Origin: Thermoplasmata archaeon
GTDB taxonomy: Archaea > Thermoplasmatota > Thermoplasmata > Thermoplasmatales > Thermoplasmataceae
Assembly (NCBI GenBank): GCA_021802205.1
Contig: JAKAAT010000004.1
Span: 1-49,817, forward strand
Direction of reading: 5' to 3'
Length of the DNA: 49,817 bases
Positions 5,252-25,497 of the stretch are shown in pieces; the first letter of the stretch is position 1; every line of letters starts with the position of its first letter. The notes under the pieces are model-generated. The model was not told the origin of the DNA. It did no database searches and saw only the letters and a list, made by a program, of their open reading frames with translations. A program made the translations under genes and the position numbers.

Positions 5252-5410
5252 TATTTATTCTCTACTAATCATATGCAAAATCCGATATGTAATTAAAATA
5301 ACGGATATAAGGCTGTTTGTAAATATCAAACTATCATGTAATTTTTAATACGCCGTTAAAAGAGGTATCAGACAACGTCCTACAAAAACTGTAAAATCAA
5401 TGTTTATATA

Positions 5411-5426
5411 CCAATATTTATATATG
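5411..5426 (+). promoter_or_regulatory. TATA box of the GT2 gene at 5452
   Basis: The sequence CCAATATTTATATATG is centred about 30 bases before the ATG at 5452 and about 22 before the TTG at 5443. This fits an archaeal TATA box with a leaderless or nearly leaderless transcript and no Shine-Dalgarno motif. Confidence 0.5.
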
Positions 5427-5451
5427 GTAGTGAGTTTCCTATTTGAACATA

Positions 5452-6240
5452 ATGGAACAGGACAAAGATTCAGAACTTTATCAAAAATACGAAACAGGTA
5501 TATCTTTAATCATACCTACATACCATGAAAAAAATAGAATTATGAAAAGCCTGGATAAATACATCCCTGTTCTTGAATCAACAGGATTAAAATATGAAAT
5601 TATAGTGATTATTGATGGCGAAGATGGCACAGAGAATTTATTGAATGGAATTAAAAATTTAAGCTATTATAAACCTGCAATAAGGCTTGGTAAAGGCGGT
5701 GCTGTTAAAAAGGGATTCTCACTTGCCAGATACAGCTACATTGGATATATAGACGCGGATGGTAGTTTAAGTGTAAAGGACTTTGAAAATATTCTTTCAA
5801 ACATGGAAAATAAATGTTGCACAATAGCATCCAGGTATCTGAATGGCAGCAAATGGATCAATAGGGAGCCATTATTTAACAGGATATCCAGCAGGGGGTT
5901 TAACTTCCTTGTCAATGCATTTTTCCATTTGAATGTCAAGGATACCCAGTGCGGTGCCAAGTTTTTTAATAAGAAGGTTATAGATAGGATACTGCCTGCT
6001 ATCTCTGTCAGAAACAGAACCTTCGATGTTGCCATACTGTACCATGTGAAGAGAGCCGGTTATAATATCAATGAGATTCCCGTGACCTGGAACCATGATG
6101 ATAACTCAAATATGCCAATCAAGGCAGCTATAATACCAATGTTCGTAACAATAGTTGCAATCAAGATCATGAATTCAAGGATTAAAGAATACGTTCCAAA
6201 ATTTTTATACAAAATAGTATCAAAGTTTAATTTTTACTGA
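5452..6240 (+). CDS. GT2 glycosyltransferase, dolichyl-phosphate glucosyltransferase-like
   Basis: About 262 residues of GT-A fold GT2 enzyme. Motifs in order: SLIIPTYHEKNRI, VIIDGEDGTENL (nucleotide binding), RLGKGGAVKKGF, YIDADGSLS (metal-binding DAD), ASRYLNGS, VKDTQCGAKFF and IPVTWNHD. RLGKGGAVKKG and DTQCGAKFF are typical of enzymes that charge a polyprenyl phosphate with glucose or a similar sugar. There are no clear membrane helices at the end, unlike some DPM1-like forms. ATG at 5452 is preferred; an in-frame TTG lies at 5443. The 3' end overlaps the convergent epimerase gene by 7 bases. It probably supplies a lipid-linked sugar for this locus. Confidence 0.85.
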   Translation: MEQDKDSELYQKYETGISLIIPTYHEKNRIMKSLDKYIPVLESTGLKYEIIVIIDGEDGTENLLNGIKNLSYYKPAIRLGKGGAVKKGFSLARYSYIGYIDADGSLSVKDFENILSNMENKCCTIASRYLNGSKWINREPLFNRISSRGFNFLVNAFFHLNVKDTQCGAKFFNKKVIDRILPAISVRNRTFDVAILYHVKRAGYNINEIPVTWNHDDNSNMPIKAAIIPMFVTIVAIKIMNSRIKEYVPKFLYKIVSKFNFY

Positions 6241-12843: not shown

Positions 12844-13750
12844 TCATGTGACATTGAGCATCGACCTCTTATAATAATTATGCTTTCTCCTTCTGTAGCC
12901 ATCCTTTAAATTCCTTAAGAATGCTCTGTATTTTTCCCTGAAGCTGCTGTCATTGTTCCATTTGTCTAAGAACTGCAATGGTGAATAGTAATCCAATGTA
13001 GAATGTGGCCTCATATTGTTATAATCATAGAATGCATTCTCTATTATTTCCTTGCCTTCATTGAAATTATTGATTTCATTGATCCAGATATAATCTGTCT
13101 TTATTGAATTATGGAATGATTCAATATCTCCATTCTCCTCAGGTGTTTCCCTTTCTATATATTCATGGTTGATTCGCATTGTTTTCAAATAGTTATTGAA
13201 CTCCCTAGAGATATACTGGGAGCCATTGTCTGTTCTCAAAGTATATTATCAGGCACTGTTCCATTGAACTTCCTTATTATTGAATCATCCATGGCATTGA
13301 TAGGATCCTTAGCAGTGCATGATGTATTGTAGCTATAGCCATACCATTCCTTGGAGAATACATCCTTTATGCACATTAAATATGTCATTCCATTATTGGT
13401 TGGAATATATGTTATATCTGTTTCTATGAGCATTTCAGGTTTATCAGCTCTTAACAGCTTCAATTCCTTTCTGTTCTTATGGCTATGCACTGGCAAGGTT
13501 AGATTATTGTTTTTCATTATCCTGTATACTGTCTTCCTGGCTATTCTTATCCCAGAATTCCTTAATAGTGCCCATATCCTGTTATATCCATAGGTTACTC
13601 TTTCTTTGCATAGATCTATTATTTTACCAATAATGCTGCTGTCGATCCTTGTTATATACCTCCTGTCCTCAATGCTTTCATGCTTCTTCCTGTAATAGTA
13701 TGTTATCCTGTTGATTCCTGAATAATAACATCCTTTTTTTACTTCAATAC
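12844..13750 (-). pseudogene. IS3 orfB transposase (copy A), frameshifted and interrupted
   Basis: Encodes the IS3 orfB with an integrase (rve) core: IETDITYIPTNNGMTYLM carries the first Asp, MRTDNGSQYIS the second, and ENGDIESFHNS the Glu. The last two lie after a one-base loss near 13238 that puts the second half in another frame. The intact arrangement in copy C (36582-36848) reads straight through as VPDNITLRTDNGSQ. The first codons of orfB lie at 15139-15166, on the far side of the inserted IS110. Exactly the same frameshift is present in copy B. Confidence 0.85.
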
Positions 13751-13770
13751 CTCCTATGAAAAACCTGTAC

Positions 13771-14925
13771 TTAACAATCTTTTATGCCTCCCCGGTATAT
13801 TAAATTTGCTGAATCACCATGCACCTTAACATTGCCTGCAAGTTTATTCATGTTGTTTATTTTCTTTAATGACAGTTCTTCAAGCCTTTTGAAGTACAGT
13901 TCATCAGGATTGACTGTTTCAGTTCTTTCCTTTTCAATGTATCTTACATTGCTCTTTAGCATTGAATAAATTGTTTCTGCCAATATTCTTGCTATGGCTA
14001 TTATTGATCTGTTCCTCCCTAATCTTCTTACTATGCTGAGATACTTGGATTTAAATTTCTTTGTAAACTTAATCAGTGAATGCGCTGTTTCCACTAAAAA
14101 GAACCTCAATAATGATGGTCCATGCTTTGTTATATGTCCCTTTACTATTGTTTCACCTGATGAATGCTCACTGGGTATTAAACCGGTATATGATGCAAAT
14201 TTAAGTTTATTCTCAAATCTGTTGATTGTCCCTATCTCTGATACTATTCCTGCTGCTGTGTAGAAGTTTATTCCTGGAATTGTCATCAATAATTTTATAT
14301 CATCACTGCTGTTTGCTATTGAAGATATTTCTGTTTCTATTTCAATTTCCCTTTCTTTTATAAATGATATATCATTTAATAATGATCTCAAGACTATCCT
14401 ATCGGAATAATTGAGATTGCTGTAACTATTTTCTATTTCCCTTAACCCTTTCTTTCCGAATGGGTCTGTAGCCTTTATTATTATTCCGTATGATGTTAAT
14501 AATGCATGTATTTTATTCTTCTTTAAAGTCAATTCTTCTCCAAGTGAATGCCTGTACCTTACCAGGGATCTTATATTCTCTATCTCTTCAGATGGAACAT
14601 ATATCTCCTTCATTCCTCCCTTTCTGAATACATCTGCAAGCTGGAATGAATCCTCCTTGTCTGTCTTCTTATAATTCTTTGATATTTCAGGAACCTTCGC
14701 AGGATTTATCAGGTGTATTTTATAACCTAAAATTGATAACTCCTTGCTGAGATATTTGCCTGATGTAGATGATTCTATTACAATATCATGATCCTTGTAA
14801 TCAGATAAAAACCCGTTGACTGTCTCCATATTATTCTCCATATTCCTCTGGATAATAATAGTACCATTATCCTCCATTACAGTTCCGTATACGGAACGTT
14901 TATGTACATCCAAGCCAATTACCAT
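13771..14925 (-). CDS. IS110-family transposase
   Basis: 384 residues with the two IS110 domains. The N-terminal RuvC-like DEDD domain shows MVIGLDVHK (Asp5), DIVIESS (Glu) and KKTDKEDSFQLAD (the Asp pair). The C-terminal Transposase_20 domain shows LLMTIPGINFYTAAGIVSEI and TGLIPSEHSSG, then TKHGPSLLRFFLVETAH with the candidate catalytic Ser. IS110 enzymes recombine DNA using a bridge RNA encoded in the noncoding end; the 14941-15120 region is the candidate. This copy appears intact and is the only full-length one of four. Confidence 0.93.
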   Translation of the reverse strand: MVIGLDVHKRSVYGTVMEDNGTIIIQRNMENNMETVNGFLSDYKDHDIVIESSTSGKYLSKELSILGYKIHLINPAKVPEISKNYKKTDKEDSFQLADVFRKGGMKEIYVPSEEIENIRSLVRYRHSLGEELTLKKNKIHALLTSYGIIIKATDPFGKKGLREIENSYSNLNYSDRIVLRSLLNDISFIKEREIEIETEISSIANSSDDIKLLMTIPGINFYTAAGIVSEIGTINRFENKLKFASYTGLIPSEHSSGETIVKGHITKHGPSLLRFFLVETAHSLIKFTKKFKSKYLSIVRRLGRNRSIIAIARILAETIYSMLKSNVRYIEKERTETVNPDELYFKRLEELSLKKINNMNKLAGNVKVHGDSANLIYRGGIKDC

Positions 14926-14940
14926 TTAATCACCTCATAG

Positions 14941-15120
14941 TGATTCTGTGAGATTTAGAATCGTAGACTCGACAAACTCCTATTCACCTTATTAAATATT
15001 AATGAGGTATGAAATCGAGTCGAAGGGCGGCTATTCTTTAGGACGGCCTCGAAGGTCAAGGTATTGGACAACCGCCTCCGATTCTCACAGCTATATCGTC
15101 ATATAGCTGAGGCTAAATAA
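14941..15120 (-). ncRNA. Candidate IS110 bridge RNA, copy 1
   Basis: A structured region upstream of the transposase. CTGTGAGA (14946-14953) can pair with TCTCACAG (15083-15090) to close the domain; AGCTATAT/ATATAGCT (15089-15108) is a hairpin outside it. Inside are two loops. Loop A is closed by GACTCGA/TCGAGTC (14966-14972, 15015-15021). Its arms CTCCTAT (14977-14983) and GAAATC (15011-15016) flank an inner hairpin. Loop B is closed by GGGCGG/CCGCC (15025-15030, 15072-15076). Its arms TTTAGG (15037-15042) and GGTATTGG (15060-15067) flank the hairpin GGCCT..AGGTC. Loop A arms repeat sequences at the element ends; loop B arms differ between copies. Orientation as the transposase is assumed. 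Confidence 0.7.
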
Positions 15121-15162
15121 GGTTTTTCATGATTTCTTTATTATTCATTTCATCCACTGAAC

Positions 15163-18053: not shown

Positions 18054-18073
18054 CTCCTATGAAAAACCGATAC

Positions 18074-19226
18074 TTAACAATCTTTTATACCTCCCCGGTA
18101 TATTAAATTTGCTGAATCGTTACTCACATTACTATCTTTAGCAATTCTTCTCATGTTGTTTATCTTCTTTAATGACAGTTCTTCAAGCCTTTTAAAGTAT
18201 AATTCATCAGGATTGATTGTTTCACTTCTTTCCCTTTCAATGTATTTTACATTGTTCTTTAACATTGCATAGATTGTTTCCGCTAATATCCTTGCTATTG
18301 CTATTATTGACCTCTTCTTCCCTAATCTTCTTACTATGCTGAGATACTTGGATTTAAATTTCTTTGTATACTTTATTAATGAATGTGCAGTTTCAACCAG
18401 GAAGAATCTCAATAATGATGGGCCATGCTTTGTTATATGGCCCTTTACTACCTTTTCACCTGATGAATGCTCCTTGGGTATTAAACCGGTGTATGATGCA
18501 AACTTGAGCTTGTTCTCGAATCTGTTTATTGTTCCTATTTCTGATAATATACCTGCTGCTGTGTAGAAGTTTATTCCTGGAATTGTCATTAATAATTTTA
18601 TATCATTGCTGTTATCTGATATTGATGATATCTCTGCTTCTATTTCCCTTTCCCTGGTTTTAATTAATGATATGTCATTTAACAGTGATCTTAAGACTAT
18701 TTTATCAGAATAACTGAGATTGCTGTAATTATTTTCTATCTCCCTTAATCCCTTCTTACCGAACGGGTCTGTAGCTTTTATGATTATTCCATAGGATGTT
18801 AACAGTGCATGTACCTTATTCTTCTTCAAGGTTAGTTCTTCTCCCAGGGAATGCCTGTATCTAACTAAGGACCTTACATTCTCTATTTCATCTGATGGAA
18901 TGCATATCTCCTTCATTCCACCCCTCCTGAATACATCTGCAAGCTGGAATGAATCCTCCTTGTCTGTCTTCTTGTAGTTATTTGCTATTTCAGGAACCTT
19001 TGCAGGATTTATCAAATGTATCTTATAGTTTAATTTTAATAATTCTTTACAAAGGTATTTTCCTGATGTAGACGATTCTATTACAATGTCATGATCCCTG
19101 TAATCAGATAAAAACCCATTGACTGTCTCCATATTATTTTCCATATTCCTCTGGATAATAATATCCCCATTATCCTCCATAGCCGTAGCATATACGGAAT
19201 TTATGTACATCCAAGCCGATTACCAT
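18074..19226 (-). pseudogene. IS110 transposase, copy 2, frameshifted near codon 10
   Basis: Aligns along its length with the copy 1 transposase, including VIESSTSGKYL, KKTDKEDSFQLAD and TKHGPSLLRFFLVETAH. The proper start is the ATG at 19226 (MVIGLDVHK), but two bases (CG) are missing after the Lys codon, which throws the frame. The remaining long frame can start only at 19210 and then lacks the first catalytic Asp. Unless frameshifting occurs, it is inactive on its own, though it could be mobilised by copy 1. Confidence 0.85.
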
Positions 19227-19241
19227 TTAATCACCTCCTAG

Positions 19242-19420
19242 TGGTTCTGTGAGATTCTGAATCGTAGACTCGACAAACTCCTATTCACCTTATTAGATAT
19301 TAATAAGGTATGAAATCGAGTCGAAGGGCGGGTATTCTGATTAACGGCCTCGAAGGTCAAATATACCAACAACCGCCTCCGATTCTCACAGCTATATCGT
19401 CATATAGCTGAGGCTAAATA
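19242..19420 (-). ncRNA. Candidate IS110 bridge RNA, copy 2
   Basis: Almost identical to copy 1 except at loop B, whose arms read TGATTA (19338-19343) and ATATACCA (19361-19368). Loop A arms CTCCTAT and GAAATC are unchanged. The inner hairpin of loop A is CCTTATTAGATATTAATAAGG, perfectly paired where copy 1 has a G-U pair. Confidence 0.68.
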
Positions 19421-19439
19421 AGGTTTTTCATGATTTCTT

Positions 19440-20256: not shown

Positions 20257-20541
20257 ATGCCTGGAAGAATATGGACCGGTGAGGAGAAGTACAGTATTAT
20301 AATGGAATCATTTAATAATCCCAATATTACCATAGCAGAGATATGCAGGAACCATGGGATAGCAGCATCAATGTTCTATAAATGGAAGGATCAGTTCCTG
20401 GAAGGAGGAAGAAAGGGATTGGAGGGAAAGGACCCTGACAAGGCATTAATGAAAGAGAATGAGAATCTGAAGGCAATAATAGGTGAAATGACCATAGCAA
20501 ATGAAATTTTAAAAAAAAATTACATGAGGAGGAAAAGGTGA
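20257..20541 (+). CDS. IS3 orfA, copy B
   Basis: 94 residues, nearly identical to the copy A orfA. MPGRIWTGEEKYSIIMES is followed by the helix-turn-helix IAEICRNHGIAASMFYKW and a coiled-coil-like end (ENLKAIIGEMTIANEILKK). AGGGGAGGTAATCTAA ahead of the ATG contains a GGAGGT Shine-Dalgarno run, unusual for this leaderless-leaning genome. Its stop overlaps the GTG of orfB (GTGA), suggesting coupling rather than the usual -1 frameshift. Confidence 0.9.
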   Translation: MPGRIWTGEEKYSIIMESFNNPNITIAEICRNHGIAASMFYKWKDQFLEGGRKGLEGKDPDKALMKENENLKAIIGEMTIANEILKKNYMRRKR

Positions 20542-21209
20542 GTTCAGTGGATGAAATGTATAACAATGGAATAAAAATAAACAATGCATGCTATTATTCC
20601 GGAATTAATAGGATAACATACTATTACAGGAAGAAGCATGAAAACAATGAAGATAAGAGATATATAACAAGGATCGATAATAGTATCGTTAATAAAATAA
20701 TAGAATTATGCAAAGAAAGAGTAACCTATGGATATAACAGGATATGGGCACTATTAAGGAATTCAAGCATAAATATCGATAAGAAAACAGTATATAAAAT
20801 AATGAAAAACAATAATCTAACCTTGCCAGTGCATAGCCATAAGAACAGAAAGGAATTGAAGCTGTTAAGAGCTGATAAACCTGAAATGCTCATAGAAACA
20901 GATATAACATATATTCCAACCAATAATGGAATGACATATTTAATGTGCATAAAGGATGTATTCTCCAAGGAATGGTATGGCTATAGCTACAATACATCAT
21001 GCACTGCTAAGGATCCTATCAATGCCATGGATGATTCAATAATAAGGAAGTTCAATGGAACAGTGCCTGATAATATACTTTGAGAACAGACAATGGCTCC
21101 CAGTATATCTCTAAGGAATTCAATAACTATCTTAAAGCAATGGGGATTAACCATGAATACACAGAAGAAGAAACACCAGCAGAGAATGGCGATATTGAAT
21201 CATTCCATA
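20538..21209 (+). pseudogene. IS3 orfB, copy B, 5' exon (frameshifted)
   Basis: Starts at GTG 20538 with SSVDEMYNNGIKINNACYYS, then helix-turn-helix-like CKERVTYGYNRIWALLRNS and the integrase core (IETDITYIPTNNGMTYLM). At about 21075 one base is missing compared with copy C, so the frame breaks just before RTDNGSQYIS. The second frame then continues to ENGDIESFH and ends at the intron boundary, 21209. The same lesion is in copy A. Confidence 0.85.
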
Positions 21210-21741
21210 GCGCGCCAGGGAAGCTCTATGACTCAACAGTGGAAGTCTGGAACCGGCAATTGTGCATTCAGCCGGATAGCGAAAGGCACAGCATACCCAG
21301 CGATGGCTATGCTGAAGCTGCCCGTATGCAAAACTGCAGGCCGTATCGAAAGAGAATGCGATGTAGCACCGAAAGTTCTGGGAGGGGAAGCTGAATGCAT
21401 TGTGGAAGCATGAAGGCTGCCATATCCTCGGAAACAAATGCACATGAAGAGGATGTTCCCCCGGTGTTTCAGCAATGGCATGCAGTGAAAGCCATAGAGG
21501 GTAACCTGGGAGGCCATGCCATGTCCTTGCCAATTATAGAGAGATCTGATGTGATCATTTGGGAGGTAAGGGATTCTATAAGCAAAGGCGAAGTGAATCC
21601 CAAAGCATGGCATGGAGTCGGATGGCCTCACAGTACCCATGACGTGAAGGACAGCATAACCTTCACAGAGGGAAGGAGACCTGCTCGTGACATGACCGTT
21701 CTGATCTCAGAGGAGTCCCATTCCCGCGAGGGTAGGAGGAT

Positions 21742-22992
21742 ATGAAAACACTCAGGGAGATTCAAAACGGTCTTTACGCAAGGGCTAAGTCGGAAAAGGA
21801 TGCAAAGTTCAACACGCTGATGGACAAGGTATGCCGATCAGACGTGCTGAAGGAGGCATGGAACCTTGTATATGCGAACAGGGGATCACCGGGAATAGAC
21901 GGCGAATCGGTAAGGCATGTGAAGGAGAGGGAGGAGGATCTTGTGAACAGGACATACAGGGTGGAATCCGTCAGGAGGATCTTCATCCCGAAATCCAACG
22001 GGAAGGAACGGCCTCTCGGCATTCCAACGGTAAAAGATCGCATAGTGCAGCAGGCGGTAAAGCTGATCATCGAACCCATCTTTGAGGCAGATTTTCATGA
22101 CAGCAGTTACGGGTACAGGCCGAACAGGAATGCAAAGCAGGCATCCCTTGAGATACGCAGGTATCTGAACTACGGCTGCACTGAGATTGTGGACATGGAT
22201 ATATCATCGTTCTTTGACAGCATTGATCACCGTATAATGATGTCCCTTGTGGAAAGGAGAATAAGGGACGGCTATGTCCTTCACCTGATAAGGGAATGGC
22301 TCAGGGCAGGAGTGGTATACAGCGGAGAAACAACATACCCGGCACTTGGCACTCCTCAGGGCGGAGTCATATCACCACTGCTTGCAAACATATACCTGAA
22401 CGAGATCGACAGATTCTGGGCAGAAGATGGAAGATACACAGCAGAGAAGTACGATGCACATCTCATAAGATATGCGGATGACATGGCGATACTTTCAGGA
22501 AGCAATCCAGAGACGATCATGGCGATCATGAGAAAACTGCTGAATGAACTCAAACTATCCCTGAACGAGGAGAAGAGCAGGATCGTCACGGCAAGGGAAG
22601 GCTTTGACTTCATCGGCTTCCACTTCTTTCGAAGGTACATAGCAAGGAAGGGCAGGGAAATCACCATATTCCAGCCCTCGAAAAAGGCGGTAAGAAACTT
22701 CAGGGAAAAGGCAAAGAAGATACTCAATCGAAAGAATCTTTCCATGGATGAAGATGAAGCGGTGAAAAGGATCAATCATCTAATAGCAGGCTGGACAAAC
22801 TATTTCAATCACACAAACGCAAGCAGAATATATAACGTACTGCAGAGATTCATCGACTGGTTGTTCTACAAGTTCGTGGCATATAGGCACAAGAAAAGGC
22901 AATTAGCCGTATCGGATAACCTGTATACGCGAATTTACCGCAGGAAACTCAAGCCCCTGAAGGGAATAATACGGTATAGCGCCGTTGCGTGA
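21742..22992 (+). CDS. ltrA: Group II intron reverse transcriptase/maturase
   Basis: 416 residues. The reverse transcriptase domain runs in order: IFIPKSNGKERPLGIPTVKD, DFHDSSYGYRPNRNAKQA, IVDMDISSFFDSIDH, GTPQGGVISPLLANIYL and the catalytic RYADDMAIL. Next comes the thumb and maturase domain X (VKRINHLIAGWTNYFNHTNA). There is no C-terminal HNH endonuclease, so the intron would have to rely on other priming for mobility, as in several bacterial classes. Codon use is G+C-rich compared with neighbours. The protein helps splice its own intron and copies it into new sites. Confidence 0.95.
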   Translation: MKTLREIQNGLYARAKSEKDAKFNTLMDKVCRSDVLKEAWNLVYANRGSPGIDGESVRHVKEREEDLVNRTYRVESVRRIFIPKSNGKERPLGIPTVKDRIVQQAVKLIIEPIFEADFHDSSYGYRPNRNAKQASLEIRRYLNYGCTEIVDMDISSFFDSIDHRIMMSLVERRIRDGYVLHLIREWLRAGVVYSGETTYPALGTPQGGVISPLLANIYLNEIDRFWAEDGRYTAEKYDAHLIRYADDMAILSGSNPETIMAIMRKLLNELKLSLNEEKSRIVTAREGFDFIGFHFFRRYIARKGREITIFQPSKKAVRNFREKAKKILNRKNLSMDEDEAVKRINHLIAGWTNYFNHTNASRIYNVLQRFIDWLFYKFVAYRHKKRQLAVSDNLYTRIYRRKLKPLKGIIRYSAVA

Positions 22993-23003
22993 AGTAGCAA
23001 GGA

Positions 23004-23076
23004 GAGCCGTGTGACCGAAAAGGTCAAGCACGGTTCGAAGCGGAAGGGTCTGGAGTAATCCAGGCCTTTACCCTAC
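23004..23076 (+). ncRNA. Group II intron domains V and VI
   Basis: Domain V at 23004-23036 reads GAGCCGTGTGACC, a GAAA-containing loop, then GGTCAAGCACGGTTC, with the AGC catalytic triad at 23005-23007. Domain VI follows at about 23037-23076, pairing AAGGGTCTGGA with TCCAGGCCTTT around TAA, which can offer the branch-point adenosine. Confidence 0.88.
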
Positions 23077-23342: not shown

Positions 23343-23450
23343 AATAGAAATATTTTTGTTTAAGAATCACTATCCAACATCACTAATTATTAAAAAGAAC
23401 TACAAATCGAGATTGTTTTCAGGATAAATGCAAAAGTATTGTAATTAAAT

Positions 23451-23569
23451 AAAAATCCATTGACTATCTCTATATTATTCTCCATATCCCTCTGGACAAT
23501 AATAGTACCGTTATCCTCCATTACAGTTCCGTATACGGAACGTTTATGTACACCCAAGCCAATTACCAT
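23451..23569 (-). pseudogene. IS110 transposase N-terminal fragment, copy 3
   Basis: About 40 codons: MVIGLGVHKRSVYGTVMEDN, then a decayed end with a stop. The first catalytic Asp is changed to Gly (GLGVHK instead of GLDVHK). Non-functional. Confidence 0.8.
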
Positions 23570-23658
23570 TTAATCACCTCTGATTCTGTGAGATTTAGAA
23601 TCGTAGACTCGACAAACTCCTATTCACCTTATTAAATCAGGTTTTTCATGATTTCTTT
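23451..23658 (-). mobile_element. IS110 remnant, copy 3
   Basis: Holds the first part of the transposase gene and the two edges of the noncoding end, joined after a deletion of most of the bridge-RNA region: TTATTAAAT is followed directly by CAGGTTTTTCATGATTTCTTT. The breakpoints share AAAT, so a short-homology deletion is likely. Confidence 0.8.
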
Positions 23659-25185: not shown

Positions 25186-25380
25186 AGAAATCATGAAAAA
25201 TCTTATTTTGCCTCAGCTATATGATGGTATAGCTGTGAGAATCGGAGGCGGCTGTTGAAGAACTTGACCCTTGAGGCCGTTATCAGAATAGCCGCCCTTC
25301 GATTCAATTTCATACCTTATTTAATAAGGTGAGTAGGAGTTTGTCGAGTCTACGATTCTGAATCTCACAGAATCACTATC
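25186..25380 (+). mobile_element. IS110 left-end remnant, copy 4
   Basis: Starts AGAAATCATGAAAAATCTT and contains the whole noncoding bridge-RNA region in reverse orientation to copies 1-3. It ends at AGAATCACTAT, where the transposase gene should begin; instead the right end of an IS3 element follows. No transposase remains. Confidence 0.85.
25205..25378 (+). ncRNA. Candidate IS110 bridge RNA, copy 4 (orphan)
   Basis: Same fold as copies 1 and 2: closing CTGTGAGA/TCTCACAG type pairing, hairpin AGCTATA/TATAGCT and both internal loops. Read in the same direction as copy 1, loop B arms are TGATA (complement at 25281-25285) and GTTCTTCA (complement at 25256-25263), different from both other copies. 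Loop A is slightly drifted (CTCCTAC, GAAATT). The loop A inner hairpin is CCTTATTTAATAAGG. Confidence 0.62.
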
Positions 25381-25388
25381 CAACATCA
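25371..25388 (+). mobile_element. Detached IS3 right end
   Basis: AATCACTATCCAACATCA equals the right terminus of IS3 copies A-C. Its first bases AGAATCACTAT are also IS110 sequence, so the joint lies within a shared 11-base string. Confidence 0.8.
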
Positions 25389-25497
25389 GTTTTTTCAGTC
25401 CCTTTCCTCCCCGGATGTTCCAGGGCATACTGCTTTCCAATAATATTGTTTATTTCCTCCAGCTTGTAATGTATATCATCACGGGTAACCTTTCCCA
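25389..25497 (-). pseudogene. N-terminal fragment of DUF2080-type IS transposase
   Basis: MGKVTRDDIHYKLEEINNII, then GKQYALEHP, matches the first 30 residues of the transposase at 41665-42696 before the sequence diverges and is cut. Confidence 0.8.

Follow-up and report, generated by a model that had tools for sequence, protein, structure and literature searches.

In a 49,817-nucleotide stretch of DNA from a Thermoplasmata archaeon, hereafter the window (contig C32 of a 1.75-Mb genome assembly in 105 contigs), an insertion element of the IS110 family, copy 1, carries a noncoding region upstream of its DEDD transposase gene. Judged from its sequence, this region very probably encodes a bridge RNA (seekRNA) whose guides stand in mirror polarity to those of IS621. 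An earlier note on the same DNA had already proposed a bridge RNA here, and the proposal gained ground from the covariation of the fold in homologues and from one loop (loop A of that note) whose arms track the element tips in relatives.

In the mechanism that we propose, transcription of the transposase strand ahead of the gene would yield the RNA, and the DEDD recombinase of the element itself would bind it in a ribonucleoprotein that would carry out catalysis. The first loop of the RNA, on the 5' side, would recognise the insertion target by pairing with each of its halves, and the second loop, on the 3' side, would do likewise with the circle junction; in both cases the guides would overlap the core dinucleotide. 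On the strand whose core is CT, both loops have a 5' arm that is sense to the left half and a 3' arm that is antisense to the right half, the arrangement of IS621; in this element that strand is the one opposite the transposase gene, and gene and RNA are mounted the other way round than in IS621. The circle junction expected in the RNA frame is CATGATTT-CT-CCTATG.

The recombinase that adjoins the RNA region has the DEDD and Transposase_20 domains, and against the PDB it matched ISCro4 (E 1.2e-10) and IS621 (E 1.4e-9), with residues 195-328 as the best stretch. The edges of copy 1 were set by comparison among copies and with an uninterrupted IS3-type homologue of its target. The flanks joined by one CT align to this homologue without gaps over 202 columns, 180 of them identical, the comparison copy being homologous rather than identical and reading CA at the core; the insertion involved the core dinucleotide and no further target duplication. 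On the + strand the element is laid out as CT-CCTATGAAAAACC ... GGTTTTTCATGATTT-CT, and it therefore has a 10-bp inverted repeat at its ends that is inset from the tips (subterminal inverted repeat, sTIR).

Fold, covariation and strand of the RNA

Read on the transposase strand, the region folds into a 5' hairpin, an outer stem and two loops, each with an inner hairpin inside it. We aligned 28 of the 29 listed RNAs from this genome and its relatives (alignment A1), leaving out L056, which is identical to L030; the partial RNAs of copy 3, L023 and L062 had been excluded beforehand. The conserved two-loop fold that the earlier note had described from the window alone is borne out in these homologues, with 88.3% of cells paired as against 30-44% in slid controls. 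Changes on both sides were found in 24 of 38 pairs (154 cells), the 38-pair structure having been named by hand and drawn from the same sequences on which the pairs were counted, and the covariation score was 0.419, compared with 0.198 in shuffles and 0.05-0.11 in slid versions. RNAalifold, run on A1, predicted just 22 pairs, and most of the donor loop was not among them.

A covariance model, R1, was built from A1, and its matches to A1 members are therefore not independent; copy 1 is one of the 28 source sequences, and its own match holds by construction. At E 1e-4, R1 matched 42 of the 117 genomes in the order, and a transposase search at E 0.001 matched 60 of the 117. Across the class, a transposase search at E 1e-60 returned 14 of 300 genomes, all 14 within this order. 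A transposase scan of assembled contigs had yielded just two close relatives, both metagenome-assembled genomes labelled Thermoplasmata archaeon, and whole-genome searches were therefore used instead. A search of the whole window with Rfam at gathering thresholds gave two group II intron matches and nothing else.

The earlier note had read the RNA on the + strand. The transposase gene is encoded by the minus strand, which the evidence favours for the RNA as well; a functional RNA transcribed from the + strand, antisense to the transposase, is very unlikely. Folding by itself does not separate the two strands: as minus strand, copy 1 folds better than every one of 200 dinucleotide shuffles (z -3.41), while the + strand is about as good (z -3.59, 1 of 200 shuffles). 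Each guide of a minus-strand RNA would pair, as in IS621, with the 3' half of a DNA strand and with core bases, whereas the guides of a + strand RNA would pair with the 5' halves. Modest support also comes from the excess of G-U over A-C cells on the minus-strand reading (78 against 42, with 20 of the 42 A-C cells in one small helix). In addition, PMC11187229 takes the long RNA to be transcribed together with the transposase mRNA.

In the window (about 14926-14947) and in relatives, the stretch ends in a Shine-Dalgarno-like sequence, GGAGGTG or GAGGTG before the gene start, that can pair with the letters directly upstream. Of 25 distinct stems, 17 had at least five of six pairs in a search that took the best of several and had no random control; this pairing possibly hides the ribosome-binding site. 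Such a stem is what one would look for in a structured 5' leader that did nothing but regulate translation of the transposase, with the tip and target matches incidental. That explanation predicts neither the tracking of tips by arms nor the matching of targets described below, and we give it next to no probability; a leader hairpin is in any case compatible with a bridge RNA. In clade B elements (for example L025, L028, L029 and L030), ATC or ATA occupies the position of the clade A ATG at a good Shine-Dalgarno spacing, and a non-AUG start is possible in many of them.

The donor-binding loop and the element tips

The strings on which the earlier note had relied are all present: CTCCTAT at 14977-14983 and 13751-13757, GAAATC at 15011-15016 and GATTTC at 15131-15136. 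What that note had called loop A is the loop that binds the donor and is complementary to both element ends; its arms, however, run in the order opposite to those of IS621, the model cited there, a polarity that the note had not remarked on. On the transposase strand, the 5' arm GATTTC is antisense to the left tip and the 3' arm ATAGGAG is sense to the right tip.

The related elements fall into three clades, in each of which arms and tips correspond (tips given with the core dinucleotide hyphenated). Clade A, to which the window element belongs, has left tip AG-AAATC and right tip AGG-AG with arms GATTT and ATAGGAG; clade B has AG-ATGTC and AGA-AG with GACAT and ATAGAAG; and clade C has CT-ACT and GACAC-CT with GACAC and ATAGTAG. 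Arm and tip also vary together in single clade B elements, namely L031 (tip AGGTC, arm GACCT) and L033 (GTGTC, GACAC). The loop is therefore near-constant, as the earlier note had called it, within a subclade, while between subclades it changes together with the tips. That note had named missing covariation in further homologues, and loop A arms that do not follow the ends of related elements, as grounds for abandoning its reading; both covariation and tracking were found.

We scored the left tip in 78 of 81 RNA hits, omitting L173 (no left tip) and L149 and L156 (arms missing). The mirror order fitted better in 62, the IS621 order in 13, and three were tied; at 4-5 of 5 matches the counts were 51 and 9, all nine being clade C. 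Among the 28 elements with both ends, every one of the 22 in clades A and B showed the mirror order at the right tip (4-5/5), a count partly conditioned because the groups were labelled by right tip. At the left tip the same elements matched in mirror order at 4-5/5 in 20 cases and 3/5 in two, and all six clade C elements had the IS621 order at both tips.

The target-binding loop and insertion sites

The other loop, left uninterpreted in the earlier note, is the target-binding loop. Its 5' arm CAATACCTT reproduces the + strand flank with the core (13745-13752), and its 3' arm TAAAG the opposite flank with the core as read on the transposase strand. For the set, arms were compared with flanks in the CT-core frame, a shift of up to one base in each direction being permitted, in 27 of 29 candidate rows (28 plus C11); L026 (a duplicate) and L094 (deleted arm) were omitted.

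Target matching across the set was far above permuted pairings, with totals of 125 against 95.8 +- 5.4 for the 5' arm (0 of 20,000) and 92 against 75.5 +- 4.3 for the 3' arm (2 of 20,000), while the opposite polarity was at chance level (8006 and 18,554 of 20,000). The signal persists with one element per distinct 5' arm (n=23; 0/20,000). It was 169 against 131.8 in clades A and B (0/20,000; opposite polarity 7260/20,000) and 48 against 40.2 in clade C (267/20,000; opposite polarity 19,650/20,000), for which the 3' arm alone gave 349/20,000. For 11 of the 27 elements the own site ranked first for the 5' target arm. Examples of matches are CAATACCT in window copy 1, ATGATGG plus CT in L028, and CATAAAGGAT in the 3' arm of L054. 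The target loop is thus complementary to both target halves in copy 1 and in the set as a whole, while copy 2 and some others fail singly.

Element L054 (genome G068; RNA 5337-5538) is inserted in an IS3-type transposase gene, within the codons for CIKDVFS, which by eye resembles the second catalytic D. Insertion at that kind of site is reported for ISEc21, an element with the opposite guide order (PMC11187229). In two genomes (L025 and L026) an element of type B and one of type C face each other head to head with the joint CATGACAT-CT-ACTATG; the 5' target arm of the C element (CAGATCT) matches the flank beyond the B element, and the B element therefore appears to have entered at the left junction of the C element.

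Guide order across clades and outgroups

In the transposase frame, the 5' arm of clade A and B RNAs pairs with the top strand and the 3' arm with the bottom strand. One could suspect that the polarity is that of IS621 after all and that the reversed order reflects misassigned ends or strand, since the RNA precedes the gene, as it does in the IS110 group. However, scored under that polarity the A/B targets do no better than chance (131 against 128.7), A/B elements with both ends reach just 0-2 of 5 matches at their tips, and the identical scoring returns the IS621 polarity in clade C. We also read two IS621 copies anew by eye: their 5' target arm ATCGGGCCT matched the left flanks at 8 of 9 positions in each (ATCGGGTCT, ATCAGGCCT) and the 5' donor arm ACAGTATC equals the right end, which bears out the published order. 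A misassignment of this kind is extremely improbable.

Clade C is sister to A+B in the transposase tree (support 100/98 for each of A+B, C and A+B+C), so that both polarities occur within one clade. Its RNA arms are homologous to those of clade B, its two tips are exchanged, and its order is that of IS621. A sister clade with the opposite order suggests that the reading direction can flip in evolution. An exchange of the RNA arms, rather than of the ends, would yield an identical order relative to the gene, but the arms align as homologues across the clades (5' GACAC/GACAT/GATTT, 3' ATAGTAG/ATAGAAG/ATAGGAG). Moreover, the right tip of clade C, GACAC, is complementary to GTGTC, the left tip of the B-type element L033, and the left tip of clade C, CTACT, is the counterpart of the right tip in A and B, which points to exchanged tips and makes an exchange of arms unlikely.

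For outgroups we read 14 haloarchaeal loci, 13 of them with a plausible script-called repeat and one, L179, by eye since the wrong repeat pair had been called. Counted without a chance control, 12 of the 13 loci have a right-tip-sense match of at least 6 nt between positions 125 and 153 of the upstream region, a left-tip-antisense match stands where expected in three (L183, L188, L194), and likely target-arm matches are placed in the same order, right-flank-antisense at 36-46 in six and left-flank-sense at 65-73 in nine. The right-tip match is just 6 nt in L192 and L197, the 6-mer of L189 lies elsewhere, and L179 shows ATAGGTGT. Further loci, likewise without a control, have a downstream noncoding region: L174 (12-bp sTIR), with 7-nt matches in mirror order, and L066-L068 of this order, with an 8-nt right-tip-sense match in all three printed. 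Together these loci point, with moderate confidence, to the mirror order of A and B as ancestral and clade C as flipped.

We lean towards the view that the guide order by which IS110 RNAs reportedly differ from IS1111 RNAs reflects the orientation of the RNA-plus-transposase cassette between the ends, not a property of the RNA or the enzyme. The cassette would have flipped on the clade C branch, and the two mirror forms would interconvert by inversion of the interior between the sTIRs, possibly driven by the recombinase in a Piv-like manner. We propose that the system would still work after such a flip, given an RNA that acts in trans and ends that are nearly symmetric by virtue of their sTIRs.

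Several observations weigh against a mirror-polarity bridge RNA, besides the conditioned right-tip counts. One of five covariation measures, the number of further pair types, is within chance (55 against 52.0 in shuffles, 67/500), the donor stem varies on one side only without double changes, and transcription from the minus strand is itself deduced from sequence features. One-base mismatches between tip and arm occur, for example in L088, L094, L025 and L052, and decayed or divergent copies such as L040, L084, L093, L143 and L159 misfit. For nine of the 27 elements the own site ranks 10th or worse for the 5' target arm: copy 2 (L003), L025, L054, L095, L033 and L093, and L037, L058 and L085 of clade C. 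The target arms of copy 2 are unlike its present flanks (5' arm rank 22 of 27). Clade C offers six target pairs, its 5' arm alone is not significant (5829/20,000), and its exact left junction is uncertain by 1-2 bases. Finally, the transposase tree, in which the element groups with other Thermoplasmatales and haloarchaeal rows on long branches with few named references, leaves its placement between IS110 and IS1111 unsettled.

Relation to known systems

In IS1111 seekRNAs the arm pairing with the top strand lies 5' of the arm pairing with the bottom strand, and the noncoding region is as a rule downstream of the gene (PMC11187229); ISEc21 and IS621 have the reverse guide order (PMC11187229, PMC11208158). 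Exceptions in location are ISMtsp17, with an upstream region, and ISHvo10 and ISAcp5, with regions on both sides, the parts of PMC11187229 used here not stating their guide order. From the reversed order, Siddiquee et al. held that the two families cannot be assumed to move alike (PMC11187229). That both orders occur in a single clade, whose RNAs are homologous and whose ends are swapped, speaks instead for a shared mechanism with two mirror-image layouts.

The window element shares with IS621, as described in PMC11208160 and PMC11208158, a DEDD recombinase, an RNA upstream of the gene, a CT core in the RNA frame, a 5' stem-loop, target loop and donor loop in that order, and guides pairing with bottom-left and top-right strands; unlike IS621, its arm order relative to the transposase strand is reversed and its host is archaeal. 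With ISEc21 (PMC11187229) it has the upstream noncoding region and an IS3-family target in common, but the arm order is opposite and the sTIR is reported absent or short in ISEc21's family. It resembles the IS1111 group (ISEc11, ISPa11, ISKpn4; PMC11187229) in its long sTIRs and in the top-strand arm placed 5', and differs from that group in having its noncoding region upstream.

Of the features given for the IS110 group, the element thus has the upstream noncoding region; it lacks the bottom-strand arm placed 5', found just in clade C, and in place of no or a very short sTIR (a 2-3-bp pattern is reported) it has 10 bp. Of those given for the IS1111 group it has an sTIR of 7-17 bp and the top-strand arm 5', and lacks the downstream noncoding region. 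This combination fits neither group fully, and we therefore file it as an IS110-family bridge-RNA element with the subgroup open.

The 14 haloarchaeal IS110-family plasmid elements (among L179-L197) are alike in having some 200 nt of RNA-like sequence ahead of the gene, an sTIR of 14-18 bp in 12 of 14, and a late right-tip-sense match in the order of the window element. They differ in transposase sequence (about 30-35% identity) and, in most, by about 190 nt more between the stop and the right end. Among the matches listed in a search of open-licence titles and abstract openings, preprints not included, none described an upstream noncoding region with reversed order or a reversal of polarity; guide orders drawn in figures or supplements of PMC11187229, PMC11208160 and PMC11208158 might include the upstream-RNA, reversed-order combination. 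An archaeal bridge-RNA set with readable donor and target guides provides material for testing programmable recombinases.

Copies and neighbouring elements in the window

The window is rich in transposase-like frames and repeats, and copy 1 is one of four copies of the element in it (Table 1).

Table 1. Coordinates of copy 1, its parts and related features in the window.
Feature	Position	Strand	Basis or remarks
IS110-family element, copy 1	13751..15137	-	Ends common to other copies; flank comparison
Core dinucleotide at both element edges	13751-13752, 15136-15137		CT on + strand, AG on transposase strand
DEDD transposase/recombinase, 384 aa	13771..14925	-	PF01548 E 4.3e-23, PF02371 E 3.9e-22
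Right-end sTIR ATGAAAAACC, + strand reading	13756..13765	+	Sequence; 9-14-bp counterparts in relatives
Left-end sTIR ATGAAAAACC, transposase-strand reading	15121..15130	-	Sequence
Left target half (RNA frame), CAATAC	13745..13750	+	Read by 5' target arm
Stretch matched by R1 (RNA, left sTIR and ribosome-binding site)	14929..15130	-	E 4.6e-48
5' hairpin of RNA	15088..15109	-	6 of 7 modelled pairs change on both sides, 28 homologues
Target-binding loop	15036..15066	-	5' arm CAATACCTT (15066-15058), 3' arm TAAAG (15040-15036)
Donor-binding loop	14977..15016	-	5' arm GATTTC (15016-15011), 3' arm ATAGGAG (14983-14977)
Copy 2	18054..19438	-	RNA 19230-19431
Region with uninterrupted IS3-type homologue of copy 1 target	20380..20760	+	Flank alignment
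Copy 3, remnant (left tip, deleted RNA, start of transposase gene)	23439..23656	-	
Copy 4, remnant (RNA retained, without transposase)	25186..25379	+	RNA-model match 25193-25378; RNA end abuts IS3-type terminus

As the earlier note had stated, three of the four copies retain the RNA; these are copies 1, 2 and 4, and R1 matches each of them. In copy 3 the first loop has been lost by deletion, and its RNA (about 23574-23656) gives a weak model match (E 1.7e-5). The arm letters of copy 2, GGTATATT, misfit its own flanks but agree with the site of L051, a copy in a relative, suggesting a later change in the flanks or the RNA of copy 2.

The RNA of copy 4 continues directly (window 25360-25400) into AATCACTATCCAACATCA, a stretch also present at the IS3-type end near 23365, and this junction is a recombination scar between unrelated elements. 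A group II intron (RF02005, RF00029) with a frame that by eye is reverse-transcriptase-like occupies 21242-23076, inside an IS3-type element. Outside the window, L162 (genome G005, about 2266-2800) is a deletion derivative that keeps the RNA and both tips with just the start of the transposase, and is a possible non-autonomous bridge-RNA element.
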